The notes under the pieces: generated by a model
The model's database searches: none
Seen by the model: the letters and a program-made list of their open reading frames with translations, nothing else
Told to the model about the DNA's origin: nothing
Shown: positions 43,432-54,616 of the stretch, piece by piece
How positions within the stretch are numbered: the first letter of the stretch is position 1
How the letters are laid out: every line of letters begins with the position of its first letter
Program-made: the position numbers and the translations under genes
From: Pyrofollis japonicus
Lineage (GTDB): Archaea > Thermoproteota > Thermoprotei_A > Sulfolobales > Pyrodictiaceae
NCBI RefSeq assembly: GCF_033097485.1
Contig: NZ_AP028634.1
Span: 1,293,126-1,357,125, forward strand
DNA: 64,000 nucleotides
Reading direction: 5' to 3'

Positions 43432-43491
43432 TGTGGCGCCGGGGGCGGGATTTGAACCCGCGCGGCCGTGCAGCCACCGGCTCTTCAGGCC
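43432..43491 (-). repeat. attachment-site copy: 3' fragment of tRNA-Ser
   Basis: 60 bases matching 54528-54587 at 58/60 positions, same orientation, 11,096 bases apart. It holds the 3' CCA end, T arm, variable arm and the anticodon loop of tRNA-Ser, but no 5' half. The two differences are in the variable arm (43472; still pairs as G-U) and the anticodon (43485; GGA becomes GAA). This is the chromosomal-side remnant left after tRNA-gene integration. Confidence 0.9.
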
Positions 43492-43661
43492 CGTGTCATA
43501 TATATTACAAGTTCCCATAGAAACCGTGATCCGGGAACCCAGCATTACTATGCGAATTACTGATGGAATTATAATTATTGCACCAGGAACCTTTATCCAG
43601 ATCATATTTCCTGTCCAGCGACGTGTTGGGGCTCAGAGAACCGTTGCAAAAGGGGGACATT

Positions 43662-44189
43662 CTAGGTTGTTGCGGTTCTGGTTGTTGCATATTTCTTCAT
43701 TCCCGGCATGCAGCTCTCAAGGTAGTCTTTGAATGCGTAGTAGAGTGTTGGTGTGCCTAGTGCTATGAGGATGGCTGAAGCCGCTATAGCTCTCGCCAGC
43801 TCGCCTCCTCTAGCCGTTTTCGTGGAGGCGACTGCTACTAGGAGGACCCCGGTCACCAATAGTATTAGGCCGGCTGCGAACCCGAGCGTGTCCAGCAACA
43901 TTCTCTTCCCCTCGTAGCGGCACGCCATGAGTGCGGCAAGGCTAACTCTGTACCTCCTTCTAGCACCTAGCAGCAACACAATGATGACGACAAACACTAG
44001 GACTGGCGCGAGCGCCGTGAGGAACCTAGCACCACCGGGGGAGGCTCTAGCAAGAGGTACAAGCGCCAAGACGAAGCCGCCAAGAAGCCCACTGGCAACG
44101 AGCAGCTCATCCCGTCTCCAGGCACCAAGCCCGACAACAAGCCCTAGGAGAGAGGAGGCAATGAACAAGACAAGAGAAACGGCATCCAC
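43662..44189 (-). CDS. Five-helix membrane protein (element cargo)
   Basis: 175 residues, about five transmembrane helices (for example VLFIASSLLGLVVGLGAW, FLTALAPVLVFVVIIVLLLG, FAAGLILLVTGVLLVAVA). A cytoplasmic or luminal tail contains one cysteine (LESCMPGMKKY). Starts GTG 44189, 18 bases after the upstream 115-residue gene. Family not recognised. Position in the candidate bacteriocin region makes immunity or export a possible role. Confidence 0.6.
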   Translation of the reverse strand: MDAVSLVLFIASSLLGLVVGLGAWRRDELLVASGLLGGFVLALVPLARASPGGARFLTALAPVLVFVVIIVLLLGARRRYRVSLAALMACRYEGKRMLLDTLGFAAGLILLVTGVLLVAVASTKTARGGELARAIAASAILIALGTPTLYYAFKDYLESCMPGMKKYATTRTATT

Positions 44190-44207
44190 GACTACACGCC
44201 CCCCCGG

Positions 44208-44555
44208 CTAGGCCATGCGCTGGGAAGCCGCGGGACGTCTCCGCTCTACTAGGCGGCTATGCCTATGTCTCAGCAAATAGTATAGCAGGATCATGGCGGC
44301 CTCCCCCGCGAACAACGAGGCCACTACCGCGTCCTCAACAATCTTTGGCACACGTATACCGAAGAGACTCACGGCGCTCACGAAGCCTGCAAGGCATCCG
44401 CCGAGCACCATTGCTAGCCGGGAAATAATGCGTAGCTCTTTCTCATAGCTCTCGCCCCGCCTCCCTGCGGTAAGCATTTCCCAAAGCGCTATCACTGCTA
44501 GAGTTATACTAGCAACAAACGTGAGTAAACCAAGTAGGAAGGAAGTACTAGGCAA
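44208..44555 (-). CDS. Three-helix membrane protein (element cargo)
   Basis: 115 residues: hydrophobic helices at about 5-27, 45-66 and 74-92, and a basic C-terminal tail (RHRHSRLVERRRPA). Start TTG 44555. A TATA-like TATTTAGTAG lies about 25 bases upstream on this strand, so the gene may be leaderless and head its own transcript with the next gene. Family not recognised. Confidence 0.6.
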   Translation of the reverse strand: MPSTSFLLGLLTFVASITLAVIALWEMLTAGRRGESYEKELRIISRLAMVLGGCLAGFVSAVSLFGIRVPKIVEDAVVASLFAGEAAMILLYYLLRHRHSRLVERRRPAASQRMA

Positions 44556-44754
44556 TGCCGTGTCCCTACTAAATAATCCTCATAATGATTGCTAAAAAGC
44601 TAACGCGTATACATTCATATAGCCTCTACATATGTGGAACAAAAACCCAATAGCTTGAAGGTAACTGCTTGCTAATTTTCTTCCACAGCAGATGTTACGC
44701 AGAAGCCAGGGGCCAGCATCCTAGAAGCCGGGACTCCTCCTTACAGAATATGCT

Positions 44755-45141
44755 CTAAGGGGACTTAGTGAGACCTAGGATGATAGCAATAGCTATTACG
44801 AGTGATGATAGAAGAACGAGTAGCGATACAGCATCCTTGGCCACGAGTAGTCCTGCGAGCACAGCGACGACGTTGATAATCCCTGCACCATAAAGGAGGT
44901 ACCGTACTATGAGCCTAGCTAAACCAAACACGGCAAAGCCTACAGCAAATGCATAAAGGGCGGCTGATACCAGCAGAAGAATGACGGATACGGCTAGAAC
45001 CCTATTACATGAACGACCACACTGTAGGCTACCCAAATGCACTGCCGCAGAAACAGCCACTAAGGCAGCTATTGAGACAAGCAGGATAATATTAAAAAAT
45101 ACTTGTTTGGCATGGGTTATGTCACGAGCCATTCTGTTCAT
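44755..45141 (-). CDS. Four-helix membrane protein coupled to the Cys-rich precursor
   Basis: 128 residues from ATG 45141. About four transmembrane helices, with a short cysteine-containing loop (LQCGRSCNRVL). The ATG overlaps the precursor stop codon as ATGA (45138-45141), so its translation depends on the precursor gene. Candidate immunity or secretion partner. Nothing in the sequence itself names a family. The frame is open to 45210, but that part would lie inside the precursor. Confidence 0.65.
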   Translation of the reverse strand: MNRMARDITHAKQVFFNIILLVSIAALVAVSAAVHLGSLQCGRSCNRVLAVSVILLLVSAALYAFAVGFAVFGLARLIVRYLLYGAGIINVVAVLAGLLVAKDAVSLLVLLSSLVIAIAIILGLTKSP

Positions 45142-46073
45142 CCCCATACACATCCTACAAAGCATCCAATTAAACAGCCTATGGTTGACGCCCCCAATAT
45201 AATTGAGCACCAGGCACAGTAGCTACATGATATTACTTCAAAATAGCATAACCCGCATGCTAAGGCACAACTAGCACCGAGTATTGCATTAGGTACTCCA
45301 CACACATCAGAAGCACACTGCTTTAGACAGTCCCAGTATCCGTCTGTTATTATTGCTATTGTTTTTGCTTTCTTGTTGTATGGTTGTAGGTGCTTCTGCA
45401 CCAGCACAGAGAGATGACGCAGCTCCATTGCTACTTTGGGCCAGATTGTCTTTGTGTCGTTGTCTCCGCGTGATATCTTCACTAGTGTCTTTGCTAGTAG
45501 CTTGTAGCTCTGCGACAGTGTGGTTTCGTTTGGTATTACCACTATATCGGCTACTGGGTGTTCTTGGCGGGGCTCGATATTCGCTGTTGTTATGAAGTAC
45601 TTGTAGTTGCCGGTCTCGGGGTCCGTTATGATCCTTGTAACTATTGTTACGTTGAAGCCTGGGTGCTCAGCCCTATAGGCTAGTAGGTAGAAGCTCTGGC
45701 TATAGGTCTGGTTGTATACTGTTATCTCCGCGAACACCATTCTCCTCGTCGAGGTGTTAAGCTCGTAGATCTTCTCAACACTAATATTGAAGGCTGTACT
45801 GGAGTGAGCTGTTACATTGCACACTCTTGTGGCATTGGTTAGGTTTAGTACTTTGTTCAGGGTAGTTATGTTTAGAACTAGGTGGCCGAAGCGGCCGCGC
45901 TGATCAAGCTGTGCTATGACGAGCCTCTTTATGAGTAGGGTGTTATCACCAGGGCTAAGCGCGTAGGCTACGGTAGCGTTGCTAGGCAGTAGCGGCGCCA
46001 CGACTGGCAGCAGGAAGACCGGCAACAATGCTAGGATGAGGCCCCGCTTAGCCACCAAGCCGGGACGGGACAT
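45138..46073 (-). CDS. Secreted Cys-rich precursor, candidate halocin C8-like bacteriocin
   Basis: 311 residues from ATG 46073. Signal peptide (RGLILALLPVFLLPVVAPLL, likely cleavage after AYA), then about 200 residues with some 11 N-glycosylation sequons and only one cysteine. The last 66 residues have 12 cysteines (none of which is in a metal-type CxxC-xxH context), high hydrophobicity and an internal ILGAS repeat. Halocin C8 is known to be cut from the C-terminus of a longer exported precursor, as a stable disulphide-rich peptide. The architecture matches; sequence homology was not testable here. GTG 46082 lies in the GGGTGA ribosome-binding site, so ATG 46073 is used. Next gene overlaps by ATGA. 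Confidence 0.7.
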   Translation of the reverse strand: MSRPGLVAKRGLILALLPVFLLPVVAPLLPSNATVAYALSPGDNTLLIKRLVIAQLDQRGRFGHLVLNITTLNKVLNLTNATRVCNVTAHSSTAFNISVEKIYELNTSTRRMVFAEITVYNQTYSQSFYLLAYRAEHPGFNVTIVTRIITDPETGNYKYFITTANIEPRQEHPVADIVVIPNETTLSQSYKLLAKTLVKISRGDNDTKTIWPKVAMELRHLSVLVQKHLQPYNKKAKTIAIITDGYWDCLKQCASDVCGVPNAILGASCALACGLCYFEVISCSYCAWCSIILGASTIGCLIGCFVGCVWG

Positions 46074-46093
46074 ACGTCTCACCCTTCAACACC

Positions 46094-46121
46094 CTCTTCA
46101 TATATATATATATATGAAGAG
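46094..46121 (-). promoter_or_regulatory. Perfect 28-base palindrome at the precursor core promoter
   Basis: Arms CTCTTCA (46094-46100) and TGAAGAG (46115-46121) flank 14 alternating T/A bases. The centre is about 25-30 bases upstream of the precursor start on the minus strand, where the TATA box is expected. A dimeric repressor bound here would block transcription factor access. Could also be an AT-run of no function, but perfect arms argue otherwise. Confidence 0.6.
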
Positions 46122-46408
46122 TATTAGTCTCATAAGTAGACTGGGTAAGTTTCGGACAAACAATTCCCGCGTAAGATATATAACCAGCCGTTTTTCACCA
46201 AAAGGAGCCAACAGTGTTGCAACGATTATGGGAGCAGAAGAAAATGGTTTATGCCGAGAAGGTTGTAGTGCCTAGCCTTAGGGCAAGGGGACGAAGCTGG
46301 TGATCGCTTCTTATCCGAGATAGCAGACTAGATACAGCGCTTTGTAGAGATAAGGCGCTAAGCTAGCTATGCCTTGTCTATGTCACCGTCTAGGAAACAA
46401 GCTGTTCT

Positions 46409-46630
46409 TTATCGAAGTATGTAGCGTTCTATCTCGCCTTTACTGGTTATTCTGAGTATGTCCCATTTCTCACCGTCGAAATGTATGAGGTACGTGTTTT
46501 TGTGCAGGAGGCCTTTCTCGAGCTCTTTCACGTTGCAGGGCTTGAATACCTTGGCGTCCAGCTCTACTATCTTCTTGGCCCTCCTGTACTCTATCCTAGC
46601 GCTTATTGGCGCCTCTGGCTCATCTGCCAC
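46409..46630 (-). CDS. Small protein, last of a three-gene element operon
   Basis: 73 residues, acidic N-terminus (MADEPEAPIS), then alternating basic and hydrophobic segments (RAKKIVELDAKVF, EKWDILRITSKGEIERYILR). No domain recognised. GGAG precedes GTG 46630, three bases after the previous stop. Tightly packed with the two genes upstream. Confidence 0.6.
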   Translation of the reverse strand: MADEPEAPISARIEYRRAKKIVELDAKVFKPCNVKELEKGLLHKNTYLIHFDGEKWDILRITSKGEIERYILR

Positions 46631-46633
46631 GTC

Positions 46634-46960
46634 TTACTCCTCTATCTCGTATATGATTATCCTACCGTCACCGGTCTTCTCGACTATGAGGTCCCTGGAC
46701 AGCCTCCTTATCTCCCCGGGCCTGAGGGAGGCTATTTCTCTTGGCCTGACCTGCTTCCAGAGGGCCTTTGCTAGGCGGGTTATGATTCTCGAGGAGAGGG
46801 CCAGGGCACCGGCCACGCTCTGTGCCTGGGTAGTGTCGCCCTCTATGCTTGTCATCCCCGTTGTGTCGCTGGAGCCCTGGACTGGGAGTAGTTCTAGGCC
46901 CTCTACTGGCGGCTGGGCGACCCGGCTGGGGCTCCAGGGCTTCTGCCTACTAATGCTCAA
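46634..46960 (-). CDS. Unknown protein, middle of a three-gene element operon
   Basis: 108 residues. Low-complexity first half (PSRVAQPPVEGLELLPVQGSS), then a helix (AGALALSSRIITRLAKALWKQV) and a charged end. Start TTG 46960, with GGGTGA 6-7 bases upstream, six bases after the upstream stop. No family recognised. Confidence 0.6.
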   Translation of the reverse strand: MSISRQKPWSPSRVAQPPVEGLELLPVQGSSDTTGMTSIEGDTTQAQSVAGALALSSRIITRLAKALWKQVRPREIASLRPGEIRRLSRDLIVEKTGDGRIIIYEIEE

Positions 46961-46966
46961 GCCTGC

Positions 46967-47419
46967 TCACCCTACTGGTTTCCACATGATCTTGGTGCTC
47001 CAGAATACTAGGTAGAGTGGTTCACCCATATCTGTTCTGTAGCTCGTGTTGCGCGACACCATTGCTGCTTCGCCGCTTACGCGTATCCGGTACCTCTTAT
47101 CGCCGACCGGTAGCTCTATCTCCTCCCAGGCGGGCTCCTGGCTCTCTATGTCCACTAGCTCCCAGCCCTCCTGGGGAGGCTTATCTGGCGGGGCAAGCGG
47201 CTTGTTCCTCACAGCCTCCACGAGCTCCTCGGGCACATGGAGGGATGCGACGCCGCCAGCAGTCTTTACCGCGAAGTTTGCTCCCCCAAAGGGGGAGAAG
47301 CCGACGTACCTAGCCCCAACTATGACAACACGGAGGACGAGCCTGCTCCCATCCGTGAGCACTACTAAACCTGGCCTGCTCGATACAACCGTGTAGACCC
47401 CACTATTTGTGGCGCTCAA
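46967..47419 (-). CDS. Unknown protein, first of a three-gene element operon
   Basis: 150 residues with a beta-rich N-terminus (VYTVVSSRPGLVVLTDGSRLVL), a Pro-rich middle (LAPPDKPPQEGW) and a hydrophobic end (LYLVFWSTKIMW). Start TTG 47419. An AGTTTAAGTA TATA-like sequence about 35-45 bases upstream on this strand could drive the operon. No family recognised. Confidence 0.6.
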   Translation of the reverse strand: MSATNSGVYTVVSSRPGLVVLTDGSRLVLRVVIVGARYVGFSPFGGANFAVKTAGGVASLHVPEELVEAVRNKPLAPPDKPPQEGWELVDIESQEPAWEEIELPVGDKRYRIRVSGEAAMVSRNTSYRTDMGEPLYLVFWSTKIMWKPVG

Positions 47420-47687
47420 GGATCAAGACCCCAGGTAAGCTAGGAATAATATTCTCTACTTAAACTCCCTGCCAATAAGCTAATGCATTATTGCACTGTC
47501 TAAGTTTAAGTTGCAAGTAGTTTATCTAATGAAGTCGAATAGAGCCTTAGCGCCTTGCTAGTGGTGCCTCAAAAGCTTGAGCCGTCTATGTATAGGTGTT
47601 TGCGGGGAAGTGCTATTTTGTTGGCTGTATTACTTGTATATTTGGGTTTGTTGTATGTGTTGTAATGATAGCGAGTGCATTGGCTCT

Positions 47688-48014
47688 ATGCGTGGCGTTG
47701 GGATAGTGGGGGTGCTTTGCCGCCGCCTAGGCTACATGTGCGGCGTCGACCCGGAGGCCGCCCCGGTCCTCGCCGCCTACGAGCTCGCAGTCCTCGAGAC
47801 CTACCTCCTCCTCTACAACGCTGGAGGCGAGGAACTCGTCACAGAGTGCCTGGGGGACGAGAACTGCCTACGAGAGCTAATAGACACAGTTAACACCGCC
47901 GCAGAACTCCACATAAGGGGCAACAGGTACTTCTACACACTCACACTAAGAGACATCGAAACCATGCTCCGGATCGCCGAGAAGCTAGCTCTGGTAAGCA
48001 AGTCCCATAGATAA
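47688..48014 (+). CDS. Small protein with four cysteines, function unknown
   Basis: 108 residues from ATG 47688. Two N-terminal cysteines (VLCRRLGYMCGVD) and two more (TECLGDENCLREL) flank a helical core (APVLAAYELAVLETYLLLYNAGG). A TATA-like GTATATTT (47635-47642) predicts transcription near 47664, which favours ATG 47688 over the open frame to 47577. No family recognised. It is the only plus-strand gene between the two minus-strand blocks. Confidence 0.55.
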   Translation: MRGVGIVGVLCRRLGYMCGVDPEAAPVLAAYELAVLETYLLLYNAGGEELVTECLGDENCLRELIDTVNTAAELHIRGNRYFYTLTLRDIETMLRIAEKLALVSKSHR

Positions 48015-49032
48015 ATATGGCCTATAAAGTGCCTAAAGGTTACTCTTGTGCGAAGAATCTAGGAAAACATTGAAACCAAAGGTATTTTGCGCGATGAATT
48101 GCTGAGGAACGATCTAGGAGAAAAAGGAGCCTCCTTCTAAGCCTGACTGTCATCAAGGCCTTAACTATTACCTCTAAGAATCAAGGACAGTAGAGCTTGA
48201 CATACCAGTCCTTGGCTGCACAATTCTACGGCGCTTTTAAACGGGGGTGATATGAGTCGGCATGTGGGTTGTGTCTTAGTTGTCGTTCCCTAGTAACTTA
48301 TAGGGGCGTTGGTGGATGCCCTTTCACTTCTCTCAAGGTTCTCGCTTGCCTCCTTGTCTGATACTCTTGGATCGAAGGCAGTTATGAGACTAGTTGCCAG
48401 CGCACAGTCTGTTACGAGACTACATGGGCAGGTGTTTTGCCCGCGGCATTTAAGGAAACGAATTATGCCTCATAGCTGTCTTGCCGCTCTACCGGGCCGC
48501 AAGGACTCGTAGCCACCTTCGCGGCCACGGCGGCCACGTGAACAGCCCATGTAGGTGTATAGCGATGACTTGAGGACTCATAACTGGCCTAGAAAAACCA
48601 AGACCAGCCCTCATAGCTGCCTTGAGCCATAAGGGAATGATTCCTAAGCAACTGTCGAGAAATCTGCTTGCCGTCACCCCTTCGTACTCATGTATACACG
48701 TAGCTGGGCAATAATTATGAGGAGAGATTATGAGAAGTAGTGAACGGTTAGGAGTCGTTGCATACGTATTTTAGGAAAGATGGTACTATTAAGCGCGGCT
48801 ACACGGCGAATCACTTGACAAGGGAGGTAAGGGATGGGATAGAGTAGGCTGTAGCAGGCCCCATGCGGGAGAGCATGTCTGCTATGATTATTGGTGCAAC
48901 AATTACCAGCACCAGCTGGTAGGATTGGGGAGAAGACACAACACAACTGCTGCCTAGAAGGTAGAGGGCTTAGAAAGGCGAGAAAAGCTTGTTTGTTCGA
49001 GCCTCAGTACCCCTTACCACATATCGGCGTAT
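48015..49032. other. 1-kb gene-poor stretch in the element with remnants
   Basis: No full-length gene. It holds a well-formed start region: CTTTTAAAC near 48235, then GGGGGTGAT before ATG 48251. That frame stops after 13 codons (MSRHVGCVLVVVP). Farther on, a plus-strand frame around 48766-48830 reads RKDGTIKRGYTANHLTREVRDGIE before a stop, which looks like a coding remnant. I interpret the stretch as a decayed gene region. Confidence 0.4.
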
Positions 49033-49716
49033 TCAATGTCCGGGTTGTATAGTAGTGCGTAGTCCTCTTCTCCGCCCCCTCATCCTCGCCGTCCTTATGG
49101 ATTCGAACGCTCTCCGCAAGTCGTTGTAACGCACATGGCTATAGGGTATTGGTACATATACTACCGCGTTATCGTGGATAGCGAGAACCCCTTCCCTGTA
49201 ACCGACTTTAGAGAAGAACACCTCAACAACAAAGGGGTTGTCGAACACGAAGAGCTTCATGCCGAGACTGCCTCTCCTATAGTTATAGTATAGGGCTAGT
49301 AGTAGGAGCTCCCCGCCTTCACCCATGTATGTTATTACATCCTCCCATCTGGTAGTAAACATTGTGTCGCTCATCCGCTTAAGGGTTTTGAGCCTCATCG
49401 CTATGCGCTGAGGCACCGTTGCTGATTTACCTGTATACCTTCTCAGCCTATATTCATCGTATATGTTGATAACTATGTCCCTAGTCCTCAAGACAATCCT
49501 TTGGTTCGATGATGATCTTAGTACGGTGTATTTCTTTACCCGAGTCCTCCTAAGCTGCTGATACATGGGCTCCGGGATAAGAACCTCTACAGGCCGGAGT
49601 GATGAAAGCACGAGACCCCTAGTAGCCGAGTACACTGATTTCCCGTACCGTGCCGGGTTGTAGCCATAGGCCTCGAAATAGATCATTCTCGATAATTCGC
49701 GACTATATACGGTCAT
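49033..49716 (-). CDS. Unknown element protein, second of a pair
   Basis: 227 residues, basic. Contains YFEAYGYNPARYGKSVY near the start, and ends with an Arg-rich tail (RMRGRRRGLRTT). No domain recognised. Its ATG lies 14 bases inside the preceding gene, so the pair is co-translated. The basic tail could bind nucleic acid. Confidence 0.6.
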   Translation of the reverse strand: MTVYSRELSRMIYFEAYGYNPARYGKSVYSATRGLVLSSLRPVEVLIPEPMYQQLRRTRVKKYTVLRSSSNQRIVLRTRDIVINIYDEYRLRRYTGKSATVPQRIAMRLKTLKRMSDTMFTTRWEDVITYMGEGGELLLLALYYNYRRGSLGMKLFVFDNPFVVEVFFSKVGYREGVLAIHDNAVVYVPIPYSHVRYNDLRRAFESIRTARMRGRRRGLRTTIQPGH

Positions 49717-50608
49717 GATTAAACCCCATGAGGGGGTCGATAGCCATGGAGGCGAGTAGGAGGGCGTGGCTTAGCGCCGCATTACCGCTGACCGGGAATA
49801 ATGGATTAATGAGTGTCAGCTTCCTGACAACGAGTATAGGTATAGATACTCGAGGAGCGTGGAGGTCTAGCACCCTGAGCTCAAGCAAGTCTTTAACGAG
49901 TATCGCCTCAGTTGCACGGGGATTGAGGGCTGTGATTAATCCCCTGCTCTTGTCTATAACAAGTCCAACAACAGACCATGGCCATGGAAGCGGGAAGGCT
50001 TGCAGCCTCTGTGCTAGTATACGGGCTCTTTCTCCATTACTGATATCGCTCGGCATCTTGTCGAATTTTATAATTGGTTTGCTCTTGTGAAGCAGCTTAT
50101 AGACACTGATCTTATCTAGTATGCGGTCGACATAGCCGTATGCGTAGGGAAGCCTTGTAGGCTGTTTAATGCGTGTCTGCGTTATTTCTATAGTTGCTAT
50201 AGCAATATGGTTGCTTACAGCTATTATCCTCGACGCACACCAGTGCTGCTCAAGGAACCTCTTAAACGCCCAGAAGTCTCTGAACCTTTTCACCGATACC
50301 ATTCTCGGCCTCTTGCCCGGTACAGGTGGAGATACCTGGGTAACTAGTTCCCCATCAAGCTTTGAGAGAGCCTCATAGGGGTTGAGGAACACGAGTTCAT
50401 ATGTAATAGTATCGATGCGTGTTGGCTCGATATGCGCGAAGGTTTTTGGCCTAATACGCCTCTCAACATTATACCGTGAATTACATGAACTATAAGCCTC
50501 GAACTCATAATAGTCGGGAAAGCTTAGTATACCTCGTGAGCAGCACGATTCTCGTAGCGCCTCGAGTACAGGGATAAGCAGTCCCTTAACCCTCTTCAAC
50601 CCTATCAT
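49703..50608 (-). CDS. Unknown element protein, first of a pair
   Basis: 301 residues, with a central AFPLPWPWSVVGLVIDKSRGLIT and a long N-terminal part with three cysteines (ESCCSRG, SSCNSR). A TATA-like CTTTTTAAGT (50636-50646 on this strand) suggests a leaderless ATG 50608. No family recognised. Confidence 0.6.
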   Translation of the reverse strand: MIGLKRVKGLLIPVLEALRESCCSRGILSFPDYYEFEAYSSCNSRYNVERRIRPKTFAHIEPTRIDTITYELVFLNPYEALSKLDGELVTQVSPPVPGKRPRMVSVKRFRDFWAFKRFLEQHWCASRIIAVSNHIAIATIEITQTRIKQPTRLPYAYGYVDRILDKISVYKLLHKSKPIIKFDKMPSDISNGERARILAQRLQAFPLPWPWSVVGLVIDKSRGLITALNPRATEAILVKDLLELRVLDLHAPRVSIPILVVRKLTLINPLFPVSGNAALSHALLLASMAIDPLMGFNHDRI

Positions 50609-50751
50609 CTCAGAAGAATTCTATAGCATTGAAAGGCACTTAAAAAGTGGCAAAATACGCTCCACACTCTTGCTCCATAGAATGAGCAAGCGCAAGTAGT
50701 GGTAGATAAGAGATAAGTATTACACAATAATTATATGATTGTTAGGGTCTC

Positions 50752-51795
50752 TTGTTGGATGCTCGTGTACTCGTTAAATTAAGCTGTTATGATTTTCGAG
50801 CCGAGAAGGAAAAGATTGGGAAGAGTAAGGCGTGGATTTCTCGCATTCTCCTCCCCAGGCTCCAGGGCATGTTCGTGGCCCATCTCTCGTTCCTTGAGCC
50901 GCTCGGCGTCGGCCACGTCTACGCCGTGCTGAATGACCGCGAGAAGTGGAGGTACTACCGGGACAGGTATGCGGGCAGGCAGAAGCTGCTGATAAGGGAG
51001 ATGCGGGACATCCCGCTTGTCAGGTACGTGCACAGGTTCTACATCTTCGGCGACGGCACCATAGGCGCCCTCTACTATGCTCCGAAGGAGGTCAGGGACG
51101 AGATCGTGGCGCGGCTGGACTCGTTCTACGACGAGGTCTACGATGCGAGGGTCTACCCTGTATTGAATTGCCTCGGCAAGCTCTACCCTGAGGCCTCCGA
51201 GGGCGACGCTTGGCGCCTCGGGAAGGCAATGCTGGAGAAGCTGAACACCGCGCCGCCCTACAGGAGCAGGAACAGGTTCCTAGACTACCTGCTTATCAGC
51301 GTGATGGAGCTGGAGCCCCTTCTCACGCTCCGGGAGCTGCGGAGCCTGGTCTACGCGGCCCGCGCCCGCATAGAGAAGGAGCTGGGCGAGGAGCTGGAGC
51401 TAAGCATGCGCTACGTCAAGAGGCACTACGTCGAGCTTAGCCGGCGCTACGTGCTCGGAAGACTATTCGTTGGCAGACCGAACGTGTGCAGTTACCCAGT
51501 CCTCGTAGTGGAAAAGAAGTACAGGGAGCTACTCTACGGGCTGGCAGCGGTAACAATGGGTTCAACCATGCTAGCCGACACAGGGGACACAGTAATAGCA
51601 TCGGTTGGCGCTACGTCTTTTGCTGAGCAATCGGAATTTATCGACATATTTCTCCCCGGCCTAGAAAAAATTACAACAACGGTCTCTGTAACAGCTGTCC
51701 CGTTTCCTTTCGAGATGTACAACCCCATAGAGGAATCATGGAGCTTAGAAGAACCAGCAGTAGAGAGAATAGAGGAAATAGTGAAAAAATACTGA
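50752..51795 (+). CDS. Unknown element protein, possible regulator
   Basis: 347 residues. Middle region is helical and basic (LRELRSLVYAARARIEKELGEELELSMRYVKRHYVELSRRYVLGRL) and the C-terminal part is a hydrophobic beta region (YGLAAVTMGSTMLADTGDTVIASVG). Start TTG 50752, preceded by AT-rich sequence. The layout (helical DNA-binding-like core, beta C-terminus) could fit a regulator; no family is recognised. GC and codon use look higher than in the flanking element genes. Confidence 0.5.
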   Translation: MLDARVLVKLSCYDFRAEKEKIGKSKAWISRILLPRLQGMFVAHLSFLEPLGVGHVYAVLNDREKWRYYRDRYAGRQKLLIREMRDIPLVRYVHRFYIFGDGTIGALYYAPKEVRDEIVARLDSFYDEVYDARVYPVLNCLGKLYPEASEGDAWRLGKAMLEKLNTAPPYRSRNRFLDYLLISVMELEPLLTLRELRSLVYAARARIEKELGEELELSMRYVKRHYVELSRRYVLGRLFVGRPNVCSYPVLVVEKKYRELLYGLAAVTMGSTMLADTGDTVIASVGATSFAEQSEFIDIFLPGLEKITTTVSVTAVPFPFEMYNPIEESWSLEEPAVERIEEIVKKY

Positions 51796-51827
51796 CTGGC
51801 TGATAGGGGCTGAGCACTACTAGATTA

Positions 51828-51941
51828 TTAAAACGGCCCTCTCCAGTTCTTTGCTTCAAGTACCTCTATCATTGTCGTCGCTAATGCCATGTATGGTGCT
51901 ATTCTCAGGAGTTTCTTCCTGAGCTCCTTCCTGCTCCTCAT
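51828..51941 (-). CDS. 37-residue protein with a strong ribosome-binding site
   Basis: Begins MRSRKELRKKLLRIAPYMAL and ends EAKNWRGPF. ATG 51941 is preceded by GGAGGTGAGAGGGA, the strongest Shine-Dalgarno match of the element. Basic N-terminus then hydrophobic stretch. Function unknown. Converges with the preceding plus-strand gene. Confidence 0.5.
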   Translation of the reverse strand: MRSRKELRKKLLRIAPYMALATTMIEVLEAKNWRGPF

Positions 51942-52176
51942 TCCCTCTCACCTCCTGTTATGTTCGTTCCCCTGTTCGTTCATTGATTGGCGCCTTCAGA
52001 GAACTTAAAAACAAGCAAGCACGGTTGACGAGCTAGTAATTGGCTTATTGATTATGAGAAGGTTGTATACCAATGCGATAATAGCGGTATTTATACTTTA
52101 GTTTACTGGGATATATGACTCCGGTAAACCAATATACATATAATTGTATAGCCGTGTTAAAGCACGGTGTAGTTCT

Positions 52177-52329
52177 ATGGAGAATAAGAAGTATTGTGAT
52201 GACTTGTTTTCTTGCCTTATAAGGTTTTTTAATGATAGTTACGAGGATAAGAAAAAGAAGAAGAGAAAAGACGGTAATGATGACCCGCTCCCAGTCACGC
52301 CAGCCATGCTATTGCTGCGCCCTGTCTAA
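52177..52329 (+). CDS. Small Lys-rich protein
   Basis: About 50 residues from ATG 52177: MENKKYCDDLFSCLIRFF, a run of lysines and a Pro-rich tail. TATA-like GGATATATGA about 52107-52116. Three alternative hairpins lie directly after its stop. Function unknown. It could also be non-coding. Confidence 0.35.
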   Translation: MENKKYCDDLFSCLIRFFNDSYEDKKKKKRKDGNDDPLPVTPAMLLLRPV

Positions 52330-52331
52330 TC

Positions 52332-52389
52332 AGGCAGGCATGTACGCGGCAACGTGCCTGCCTCCATCAGCAGGCACTACTTTTAGTGC
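52332..52389 (+). repeat. Cascade of three overlapping hairpins
   Basis: AGGCAGGCA (52332-52340) pairs with TGCCTGCCT (52355-52363). GTGCCTGC (52354-52361) pairs with GCAGGCAC (52370-52377), using the same central bases. GCACTA (52374-52379) pairs with TAGTGC (52384-52389). Neighbouring hairpins exclude each other. They lie between a plus gene stop and a convergent minus gene, so terminator or RNA-switch roles are possible. Confidence 0.6.
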
Positions 52390-52401
52390 TTACTCTCTGA
52401 G

Positions 52402-52692
52402 CTACTGCTTCTTGTTGCTATCAATGGGCCGGGACGGAGGAGCTGCTTGAAGCTTCTTCGCTAACTGGATTGATCGTGCTTCAAGGTATATCCTCATTAA
52501 TCTTGAGCCGAGCATCCTCATTATTGCTTTTTCCTCCTCCTCGTCCAGATCAATAACCCCATTATTCTTCAATACTAGCAAGCCTAGCGCTATCAATAGA
52601 CTTGTGAGGCCACTTACACTAATACCGTATTTTGCTGACATGCCAAGCAGTATTCGGTGAACTGAATCGTCTATCCTGACGAGCCGGGACAT
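52402..52692 (-). CDS. CopG-like ribbon-helix-helix protein
   Basis: 96 residues from ATG 52692. N-terminal ribbon-helix-helix (SRLVRIDDSVHRILLGMSAKYGI, then VSGLTSLLIALGLLVL) and an acidic linker (DLDEEEEKA), helical C-terminus. Likely a transcriptional regulator of the element, as in many archaeal plasmids. A TATA-like TTTAAATACG lies 25 bases upstream on this strand. Confidence 0.7.
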   Translation of the reverse strand: MSRLVRIDDSVHRILLGMSAKYGISVSGLTSLLIALGLLVLKNNGVIDLDEEEEKAIMRMLGSRLMRIYLEARSIQLAKKLQAAPPSRPIDSNKKQ

Positions 52693-52996
52693 GCTGCTAC
52701 CCATATAGTTACAGCGTATTTAAAAGCTTAGGAATACTGGGCATTGCCACTATATTAGCACTAGCGATACACCAGGTCTACAATAACTGCAACAACTAGT
52801 AACAAGCAAACCCCTCTCACACACCCCTCTCCTCACAGCCCCCTGCCCCACCCAGCACAATGATTGTCGTTGCGTAGAGTCCTCCTCCTAGACCTCTTTT
52901 TAAAAGGCTTGATAAAGGCATTTAGAATAAGGGATCAAGTGATATTAAAGGGAGCTGTTGAGGAAAGGGACGGTAATACCATTGGGAGGCAAGAAG
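52693..52996. other. Divergent promoter region of regulator and small gene
   Basis: 304 bases. On the minus side is the regulator TATA-like box. On the plus side TTTTTAAAAGG (about 52908-52918) predicts transcription near 52940, upstream of the small gene at 52997. No other feature seen. Confidence 0.45.
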
Positions 52997-53116
52997 GTGG
53001 CGAGGCTTAATGAGGAAAAATACGTAATATATCTTCCCAAGGATTTGAACGAGCTCTGGCGGGAGTTGCATGAGCGTAGGAGGAAGATAAACATCTACAT
53101 AGAGATCCTTGACTAG
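52997..53116 (+). CDS. 39-residue protein facing the integrase
   Basis: Begins VARLNEEKYVIYLPKDLNEL and ends KINIYIEILD, a short strand-helix-strand that could be a DNA-binding or antitoxin-like fold. GGGAGG lies 7 bases before GTG 52997. Its TAG and the integrase TAG share the four bases CTAG (53113-53116). Position next to the integrase suggests an accessory such as an excision factor; not shown. Confidence 0.55.
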   Translation: MARLNEEKYVIYLPKDLNELWRELHERRRKINIYIEILD

Positions 53117-54411
53117 GCTGTGGCCGGTTTTGGCACCCCTCGCTTAAGTACCGTTTTTAGGTAATCAATGTCCTCGAGTCCTCTTCTCAGAACCTCCATT
53201 ACCCTGGGATACCAGTAGTCTGCATCCGATAAGAGGTCTGAGTACACCGCCTTGCTTATCTCACCTATCTCCCCCAGCCTTGACTGGATGAACTTCGCCG
53301 CTGACTCCTTATTCACTGTTTTCTCAAGTACTCTCCAGTTCAGCTTCCGGAGATACTTTGGCCGCAACAGGTTGTGCTTCCTAGCGTAGTCGCTCACCTT
53401 GCTCCTATCCCTCTTAGTGCCGCCGTGCTTCTCTAGTAGCGGTAGCAGGTCGCGGGGAAAGTATACCCATTCACACAACTTGTTGCTCTCCCTAAGCCCC
53501 ATATAGTATCTGCAAAAGCTCTTGAAGCACACGAGGCGTGGGCTGTAGTCGTCCAGCATCTCAACGTGTACTTCCTCGTCCGGGCTCCAAGCCCCAACAA
53601 GCTTGACTACGTGCTCCAGCCGTATACCGCTATAGTACATTAATAGGTAATACAAGTAGTAGAGCTCGTGCCTGCTCCTTAGATAATCCATGGTCTTCCT
53701 GAACTGGTCTAGGTCGATCCTGTACGCCTTGACCCGTAGTTTGTAGCTGCGCGAGGGCACCACCTCCATTATCCAGGCCATTGTCTCGCCGCTTATCCTC
53801 CTTCTGAAGTATAGGTACTGTATGTAGTGTCTGAAGATGTTGCGCAACCAGCCGTTAGGGTGCCTCGCCACCCACTCGATTAGTTGCTCGCTCAGCTCCC
53901 TGCCCTCTAGGTGCTTCCTGAAGAGGTTCCGGTAGTACTTTATTGTCTCCGGGTCCCTGACCTTTGTGCGCTTCTTGCGCTCCATTAGGAAGTTTTCGAA
54001 GCCCTCGCTCCACTCAAGCTTGACCCCAGCGTATGATATGCCGAGCATCTTCTTGAGGTCTTCGCGGAAGTTCTCAACGGTGAAACGCAGTATAGCATTC
54101 TTGATGTACTCGTCTCTAGTCGCGAGCGCTAGTAGCTCCAGCACAGCGCTGTAATCGGGTACGCCGTCCCCCGTTACCAGTCCCAGCGCGCGGAGCTTCT
54201 CCTCCCCCCGCACTATCTCCTCGAACTCCGCCCTAGATAGGTGCCTCAGAGCCCTCGCCACAACCTCGTCCGGGACCCTGCGCTGACCACTAACATACCT
54301 GTATAGACTGGATTTCGCCACGCCAAGCGTCTTCGCCGCCTCGTTGAAGCCAAGCTTATCCCTAATTTTCTCCAGTATCGCCCTCCGAGCCGAATCACTC
54401 AGTGCGCCCAC
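53113..54411 (-). CDS. int: Archaeal tyrosine recombinase (integrase)
   Basis: 432 residues from GTG 54411 (TTG 54456 is also possible). N-terminal helix-turn-helix (FNEAAKTLGVAKSSLYRYVSG) and a core-binding region. The catalytic domain has YYSGIRLEHVVKL (first Arg), KFIQSR near the second Arg, and a probable nucleophile in AVYSDLLSDADYWYPRV. It matches the archaeal phage-integrase family found in integrative plasmids and viruses. TATA ACTTATAAG lies at 54518-54526 right beside the tRNA end. Uninterrupted, so the element can be active (not of the split SSV type). Confidence 0.87.
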   Translation of the reverse strand: MGALSDSARRAILEKIRDKLGFNEAAKTLGVAKSSLYRYVSGQRRVPDEVVARALRHLSRAEFEEIVRGEEKLRALGLVTGDGVPDYSAVLELLALATRDEYIKNAILRFTVENFREDLKKMLGISYAGVKLEWSEGFENFLMERKKRTKVRDPETIKYYRNLFRKHLEGRELSEQLIEWVARHPNGWLRNIFRHYIQYLYFRRRISGETMAWIMEVVPSRSYKLRVKAYRIDLDQFRKTMDYLRSRHELYYLYYLLMYYSGIRLEHVVKLVGAWSPDEEVHVEMLDDYSPRLVCFKSFCRYYMGLRESNKLCEWVYFPRDLLPLLEKHGGTKRDRSKVSDYARKHNLLRPKYLRKLNWRVLEKTVNKESAAKFIQSRLGEIGEISKAVYSDLLSDADYWYPRVMEVLRRGLEDIDYLKTVLKRGVPKPATA

Positions 54412-54527
54412 ATTAACCCCTTTGAACCAGTTATCGTCCCCTGAGAATTCACCCAATAATTCCCACCCAGGGCATTGACCGGGAACCAAGAACCAGGAAG
54501 AGAACTGAATAATAGGAGGCTTATAAG

Positions 54528-54587
54528 TGTGGCGCCGGGGGCGGGATTTGAACCCGCGCGGCCGTGCGGCCACCGGCTCTCCAGGCC
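54528..54587 (-). repeat. attachment-site copy within tRNA-Ser(GGA)
   Basis: 60 bases in the 3' part of the intact tRNA, 58/60 identical to 43432-43491 and in the same orientation. The identity begins at the anticodon stem, typical of integration into the anticodon-loop/T-arm side of tRNA genes. The element supplies this 3' half, so the tRNA remains functional. Confidence 0.9.
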
Positions 54588-54616
54588 GGCCCCTTAGACC
54601 GCTCGGGCACCCCGGC
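54530..54616 (-). tRNA. tRNA-Ser (anticodon GGA)
   Basis: 87 bases, class II tRNA. Acceptor GCCGGGG pairs with CCCCGGC. Anticodon stem CCGGC-CUGGAGA-GCCGG with anticodon GGA. Variable arm GGCCG-CA-CGGCC. T arm GCGGG-UUCAAAU-CCCGC. CCA is encoded (54530-54532). No intron. Host of the element. Confidence 0.96.

Follow-up and report, generated by a model that had tools for sequence, protein, structure and literature searches.

The window analysed here is a stretch of 64,000 nucleotides (nt) from the archaeon Pyrofollis japonicus (contig NZ_AP028634.1, positions 1,293,126 to 1,357,125), and it holds an 11.1-kb element inserted at the 3' end of a tRNA-Ser gene. Two direct repeats of 60 nt each, identical at 58 of 60 positions, bound the element at 43432-43491 and 54528-54587; about 2e-22 such pairs would be expected by chance in 64 kb. 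The proximal repeat (54528-54587) is an attachment (att) copy comprising the 3'-terminal 58 nt of the tRNA and 2 further nt. The tRNA-Ser(GGA) gene itself is intact (54530..54616, minus strand) and was called by ARAGORN as a single intact tRNA-Ser(GGA) and by Rfam as RF00005. The distal att copy (43432-43491) corresponds to tRNA positions 30-87. Since the 5' part of the tRNA is absent there and the anticodon triplet reads GAA, the distal copy is a non-functional att remnant and not a tRNA gene. Enclosed between the repeats are about 15 credible genes, namely an integrase next to the tRNA and about 14 more, among them a cassette beside the distal att that encodes a candidate secreted toxin precursor and small membrane proteins.

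In P. japonicus the genes run in the order elongation factor EF-1alpha, ribosomal protein S10, tRNA-Ser, element, universal stress protein. Two congeners have the same order with the site empty (EF-1alpha, S10, tRNA-Ser, universal stress protein), and the gap between the tRNA and the universal stress protein gene is about 105 nt (G004:C16 and G001:C154; G, C and L numbers are our handles for genomes, contigs and loci). When the flanks of the element are joined and compared with the empty site, the alignment holds through the tRNA, and the short intergenic stretch past it has diverged. As a separate observation, another contig of one of these congeners (G004:C2; L046, 1-126) carries an integrase at tRNA-Ser(GGA) and has exactly 126 nt in common with an element-free contig of the same tRNA (L071). 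Its contig name states a coverage of 28.6, compared with 161.8 for a different G004 contig. This assembly looks like a mixed population in which the tRNA-Ser site is both occupied and empty.

The integrase (53113..54456, minus strand) comprises 447 residues with an N-terminal helix-turn-helix domain and a catalytic domain of family PF16795 (E 1.9e-21), which is matched by all seven members of the integrase family alignment. It is a single uninterrupted frame from a likely TTG start at 54456 to a stop at 53113, and the alignment places all catalytic residues of the R...KxxR...Y box (R279, K367xxR370 and Y405). The start lies 72 nt outside att, and in four elements of the family this distance is 72-121 nt. 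In an in-silico circle the reading frame stops at a TGA near or before att. The frame test thus found in none of the four elements an att inside the gene or a gene split on integration, and the layout is the classical, unsplit one. Because the gene begins outside att and the circle frame closes near or before it, the window integrase is a PF16795 integrase with classical layout. We had considered a 501-residue frame running through the tRNA as a split integrase of the Sulfolobus spindle-shaped virus (SSV) type. This idea was rejected, as in the circle a TGA follows two codons past att and in the elements of G021 and G022 the frame closes before att.

This combination differs from both types of integrase with which it can be compared. 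PF16795 families have been described as suicidal integrases, split by integration and derived from a single event (2021 review, PMC8371274). With the SSV-type integrases of fuselloviruses, pTN3 and pT26-2 (PMC8371274) the window integrase shares PF16795, the R...KxxR...Y box and a tRNA target whose 3' part is duplicated, but its att lies outside the gene, the gene stays whole after integration, and it has an additional N-terminal helix-turn-helix domain. The classical integrases of pNOB8, pAH1 and pSOG from Sulfolobales have the same layout, a similar length (about 420-440 residues) and an alignable N-terminal region (25-37% identity by tblastn, mostly over residues 1-150). However, the pNOB8 type has an R...YxxR...Y box and is grouped with PF00589 families, whereas the window integrase has KxxR and belongs to PF16795; a genome search with PF00589 matched another locus only. 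A whole PF16795 integrase represents either the ancestral state or a reversal.

Relatives of the integrase with 42-57% identity occur across Desulfurococcales. A contig scan with the single integrase as query gave no match, and a scan with the family alignment gave 28 named loci, 22 of which have enough sequence before the gene to be testable. A same-strand tRNA ends at most 500 nt upstream of the integrase in 18 of these 22, compared with an expectation of about 0.6%, and the tRNAs used are tRNA-Arg, -Gly, -Asp, -Thr and -Ser. We located a distal att copy for a tRNA-Asp element of G004 (46 nt, element 8.2 kb), a tRNA-Gly element of G021 (47 nt, 24.7 kb), a tRNA-Arg element of G022 (34 nt, 9.3 kb), a tRNA-Gly locus (L134, 45 nt) and a tRNA-Ser element of G031 (58 nt, 6.9 kb), the last with the same tRNA part as in the window. 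Given the att duplication, an unsplit tyrosine recombinase inside the tRNA end, the empty sites and the family-wide targeting of tRNA genes, we regard the 11.1-kb block as a site-specifically integrated mobile element, and integration is well supported by these sequence comparisons. A sequence-only reading of this DNA had reported the two 60-base repeats with 58 matches, and its coordinates are correct to the base. It had also described an uninterrupted integrase, which is indeed one open frame with its catalytic residues in place, and an integration that duplicates the tRNA 3' part; the att layout and the empty sites agree with this and with regeneration of the gene. The empty tRNA-Ser site that it suggested looking for exists in G004 and G001. 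Its view would have been undermined by the same 11 kb at an unrelated locus lacking att repeats, or by genomes that never show an empty site, and neither was seen; the integrase family sits immediately 3' of many tRNA genes, in some cases with att repeats of its own.

Two further genes recur with this integrase. One is s52 (52958..53116, plus strand), which encodes a 52-residue protein, is convergent with the integrase gene and is found in several elements that carry the same integrase. The other is p227 (49033..49716, minus strand), whose relatives occur in five other genomes among the 197 of the order. In the four cases for which the surroundings were read, an integrase lies within a few kb. 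In G031 and G087 an integrase of the window family stands beside a tRNA with s52 adjoining p227, and the integrase near the other two is more distant (27-28% identity). Based on the recurrence of the trio in G031 and G087, integrase, s52 and p227 form a small core shared by these elements. Among the related elements, the tRNA-Asp element of G004 (L059, 2365-10668) has a perfect 46-nt att and encodes a large-subunit primase domain and a Cas4/PD-(D/E)XK nuclease; it is probably a replicating cousin with the same integrase. The tRNA-Gly element of G021 (L049-L050) encodes a PolB-like protein together with other genes.

The cassette near the distal att starts with p314 (45138..46082, minus strand), a candidate secreted toxin precursor of 314 residues. 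It has a signal-like hydrophobic helix at the N-terminus, a domain (residues 46-247) that is confidently folded in the structural model (predicted local distance difference test, pLDDT, mostly 80-98) and a cysteine-rich C-terminal region (243-314) of low model confidence, with 12 cysteines in the last 72 residues. The fold of the N-domain had no Foldseek match with E <0.001 in PDB or among viral models. The immunity protein TipC2 was its best match by VIA (Z 4.4, root-mean-square deviation (rmsd) 3.7, 105 residues), which is too weak and was not used. Three multi-transmembrane proteins are encoded on the same strand after p314: p151 in its 129-residue form (44755..45144), p115 (44208..44555, assigned by hydropathy) and p175 (43662..44189). 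Of 229 genomes in the class, 11 contain members of the p314 family, and these are almost always followed on the same strand by a gene for a small membrane protein; in G011, as in the window, there are three of them. At tRNA-Arg(TCT), G021 has an integrase fragment of the window family that is directly adjoined by a p314 gene with its membrane partner and by what is left of a second such pair. A second p314 copy of G021 is located 1.6 kb past the distal att of the tRNA-Gly element, near tRNA-Arg(GCG). In G123, a radical-SAM/SPASM-like protein (L052, 7437-8894), recognised by eye, is encoded divergently beside the toxin-like gene and could be a peptide maturase or unrelated.

Eleven members of the p314 family were split at a conserved boundary before the cysteine-rich part, and the parts were scored (z) against shuffled controls. 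All C-terminal regions contain 10-16 cysteines, mostly 12, and their sequences are mostly unrelated to each other. The window protein shares its N-domain with that of G011 (z 90) but not its C-terminus (z 0.7). Conversely, it shares the C-terminus with that of G123 (z 24.9; 57% identity over 70 residues) but not the N-domain (z 1.2), and in this pair the membrane proteins encoded by the next gene are related as well (z 8.0). Similarity of p151 to the G123 partner of the matching C-terminus amounts to z 8.0-9.5, which makes p151 a candidate cognate immunity protein, and p175 is weakly related to a protein of the G011 cassette (z 4.2 to G011_141). Over ten loci, the similarity of the C-termini correlates with that of the membrane partners (Mantel r 0.79, p 0.0003), also after removal of a recent G021 paralogue (r 0.63, p 0.003). 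The corresponding correlation between N-domain and partner is r 0.48, and 0.29 (p 0.06) without this paralogue. Modularity together with co-variation of C-terminus and partner is what one would expect of polymorphic toxins that have cognate immunity proteins.

The best clue to function comes from halocin C8. A secreted precursor with a cysteine-rich C-terminal peptide, as in the halocin C8 family, is predicted for p314. Both have a hydrophobic C-terminal peptide of about 70-80 residues with roughly 10-12 cysteines. The halocin C8 model TIGR04449 has an NCBIfam cut-off of 24 bits that no member of the p314 family reaches (best 14.7 bits). In G112, a relative that is partial at a contig end (L123, 4-827) has a p314-type N-domain (z 23 to that of G050) and is followed by a multi-transmembrane gene. 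Its C-terminus aligns end to end with Sulfolobaceae proteins that score above the TIGR04449 cut-off (z 15 and 17), and it aligns to model positions 1-69 of TIGR04449 itself with E 0.047. Because this protein joins a p314-type N-domain to a C-terminus alignable with TIGR04449-positive proteins, one slot of the modular p314 family appears to be filled by a halocin C8-like peptide. The window system differs from halocin C8 in that TIGR04449 does not recognise its C-terminus and in that its membrane genes are separate and co-vary with the C-terminus. A second parallel is offered by SSV9, whose B310 is a virus-encoded secreted toxin of Sulfolobus with the neighbour C108, a protein of three transmembrane segments, and whose toxin protects the producer (PMC8628083). 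As in the window, a secreted protein of about 310 residues is followed by a small multi-transmembrane gene on a mobile element, and SSV9 is therefore a working precedent for a toxin with a membrane gene on such an element. There is, however, no sequence match between the systems in the phage collection, and the window element is not a recognised virus.

Taken together, we consider it likely that this integrative element spreads a toxin/immunity cassette of archaeocin-like type; the toxin function of p314 is inferred. The att of the element brings along the 3'-terminal 58 nt of the tRNA, whereby integration restores the gene on one side and leaves a dead copy on the opposite side. Since the integrase gene stays intact after integration, the same enzyme could excise and re-insert the element, which presumably moves as a circle. 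p314 would be exported via its signal peptide and then cleaved. The folded extracytoplasmic domain (46-247) may serve as chaperone, targeting or immunity part, and the hydrophobic C-terminal segment of about 70 residues with its 12 cysteines would be the killing peptide. Small membrane proteins encoded just downstream, p151 first, would protect the producer. A host that retains the element would benefit from such a cassette, as kin without it would be killed. p227 and p301 are candidates for copying the element or for its passage from cell to cell. More tentatively, and with a probability a little below even, an undescribed family of small Desulfurococcales elements, defined by a non-suicidal PF16795 integrase and the integrase, s52 and p227 core, may mobilise a polymorphic archaeocin system in Pyrodictiaceae, in which exchangeable cysteine-rich killing peptides are attached to either of two unrelated export domains and are accompanied by cognate membrane immunity proteins. 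Pyrodictiaceae grow near or above 100 °C.

Several points weigh against this interpretation. The empty-site tRNA of the congeners has the anticodon TGA and not GGA. The C-terminus of the window p314 had no match to TIGR04449 at E up to 5. The Spearman rank correlation between C-terminus and partner over all 45 pairs is not significant, which is expected because most pairs are unrelated, and the co-variation hence rests on few informative pairs. Likewise, the Mantel result is based on ten loci and dominated by a few high-scoring pairs, and helix periodicity can inflate the z-scores of hydrophobic proteins. No p314 relative is present in the fetched flanks of the 28 named integrase loci, and neither a tRNA nor an integrase lies within reach of the G011 cassette. 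Since the G123 cassette, moreover, lies beyond an att copy, we regard the p314 cassette as cargo acquired by such elements and not as a core part or hallmark. Antimicrobial activity, processing of p314 and excision of the element are all predictions from sequence.

An integrated plasmid is a possible, though less probable, description of the same element, and it overlaps with our preferred explanation, which it would refine: p301 and p227 would be a replication module, an adjacent repeat-bearing stretch of about 1 kb the origin, and the toxin cassette accessory. p301 (49703..50608, minus strand) overlaps p227 by 14 nt. The stretch at 48015..49032 has no credible genes and contains four perfect copies of the 14-nt motif CTCATARCTGNCYT at 48375-48623, that is, clustered within 250 bp of non-coding sequence adjacent to the p301-p227 operon; a single copy with one mismatch occurs elsewhere in the window. 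These copies are possible regulator or origin sites, and the iteron search in the element yielded nothing beyond them. In favour of a plasmid, p227 is common to other elements of the family, where it lies near integrases, and genes for a primase-like protein and a Cas4-type nuclease, or for PolB, are present in further elements that have this integrase. However, the motif was found post hoc, by looking, which biases any estimate of its chance occurrence, and the copies counted are those of the window, while p227 also occurs in G031, G087, G101 and G080. Further, p301 has no relative in 147 genomes of the order or in viral contigs, and no fold or family suggests a role in replication.

Alternatively, p314 could function as a surface or adhesion protein whose tail is rich in disulfides and crosses the membrane; the membrane proteins would then anchor or assemble it. 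The hydrophobicity of the C-terminal region is sufficient for a membrane-spanning segment, and the N-domain resembles no solved fold convincingly. We nevertheless find this unlikely, as the p314 C-terminus varies, is swapped between unrelated N-domains and co-varies with the gene that follows, all of which is typical of toxin-immunity pairs, and as one member of the family has a halocin C8-like C-terminus. Still less likely is a decayed genomic island that is no longer mobile. The two substitutions in the distal att and the stretch of about 1 kb without credible genes would fit decay, but the integrase is open with all catalytic residues, the att copies are 97% identical, the cassette genes are open, and a degenerate relative such as that in G031, with stops, fragments and a decayed integrase, looks quite different. 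As for viruses, neither PHROGs nor phage records gave a match to the fusellovirus core (VP1, VP3 and others), in searches that may miss remote relatives; none of 50,697 phage records contained a relative of p314, p347 or the integrase, and scans of phage records and IMG/VR gave none for the integrase, p314, p301, p347 and p150. A provirus, perhaps related to spindle-shaped viruses, with p314-p151 as counterpart of SSV9 B310-C108 and structural small membrane proteins, is improbable: the order of toxin and membrane gene in SSV9 (PMC8628083) and the PF16795 catalytic domain speak for it, but the cargo proteins had no match in PHROGs, no capsid, packaging ATPase or replication gene was recognised, and the integrases of spindle-shaped viruses are split on integration whereas the one in the window is whole.

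Antagonism among hyperthermophilic archaea is almost undocumented. The examples characterised in Sulfolobales are limited to sulfolobicin and, at a later date, the SSV toxins (PMC8628083). tRNA-integrated elements are already known; the novelty here lies in a PF16795 integrase that stays whole and in a modular archaeocin-like cassette, although some of the p314 family may already appear in a published survey of archaeal antimicrobial systems. If our interpretation of the element is correct, a modular toxin-immunity cassette on it would provide testable candidates in Pyrodictiaceae and their relatives and would link gene mobility to warfare between archaea. In addition, a widespread PF16795 family that stays whole could show the origin of gene-splitting integrases.

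The sequence-only reading had counted about 17 genes and found the cargo nearly all unrecognised. The count comes down to about 15. None of the scans with Pfam, NCBIfam, PHROGs and PADLOC assigned a function to any cargo gene, in agreement with that statement, but whole-genome searches found relatives for many: the integrase, s52, p347, p227, p145, p150-p108-p73 and p314. The membrane proteins p151, p115 and p175 have weak relatives only, and none were found for p301, a 100-residue protein and an open reading frame of about 50 residues. The absence of replication and structural genes had been taken to suggest an undescribed class. Indeed, no replication gene was recognised in the element; however, integrative elements often lack recognisable replication genes, and such genes are present in relatives that have the same integrase. 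The element is nonetheless unusual, on account of features that had not been identified then: its non-suicidal PF16795 integrase, the backbone of integrase, s52 and p227, and the toxin-like cassette.

Among the remaining cargo, p347 (50752..51795, plus strand) is predicted from an AF2 model (pLDDT 91) to be a tandem Lrp/AsnC-like protein resembling NirDL and is a putative regulator. The model matches NirDL (4ch7) with a Foldseek E of 2.4e-7 and a VIA Z of 10.6 (rmsd 5.1 over 252 residues), and PDB sequence matches of the p347 profile were dismissed as a kelch-type artefact of 13 residues. Paralogues of p347 occur elsewhere in the P. japonicus genome and in relatives, one of them on the element contig G004:C2. 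The orphan protein of 100 residues (52402..52704, minus strand), which had no family match and no relatives in the fetched loci, is possibly DNA-binding. p145 (47577..48014, plus strand) is a small protein with paralogues in the same genus, identified by genome search. The operon p150-p108-p73 (46967..47419, 46634..46960 and 46409..46630, all minus strand) was recognised by operon comparison in four other genomes, and p150 alone is more widespread. Operon or lone p150 are distributed patchily over 24 of 226 genomes with varied neighbours (L174-L184).

The tRNA-Ser genes themselves deserve a separate remark. The gene on the S10/EF-1alpha side has the anticodon GGA in P. japonicus, G006, G007 and G008 and TGA in G001, G004, G005, G009, G011 and G014. 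The TGA tRNA-Ser of P. japonicus (G000:C1:852767-852853; its GGA counterpart is the window gene at 54530-54616) occupies the position of the GGA gene of G004, with the same upstream neighbours. The two near-identical genes seem to exchange identity repeatedly. We do not claim that integration switched the anticodon from TGA to GGA, as G is present at that position in both repeat copies and the S10-side gene is GGA or TGA across genera anyway. Finally, tRNA-Ser(GGA) of G014 harbours a different element of 22.6 kb (G014:C1:751398-774140; L068-L069) with an att match of 61 columns. Its integrase has no detectable similarity to that of the window, and with its many secreted and coiled-coil proteins this element is possibly viral.

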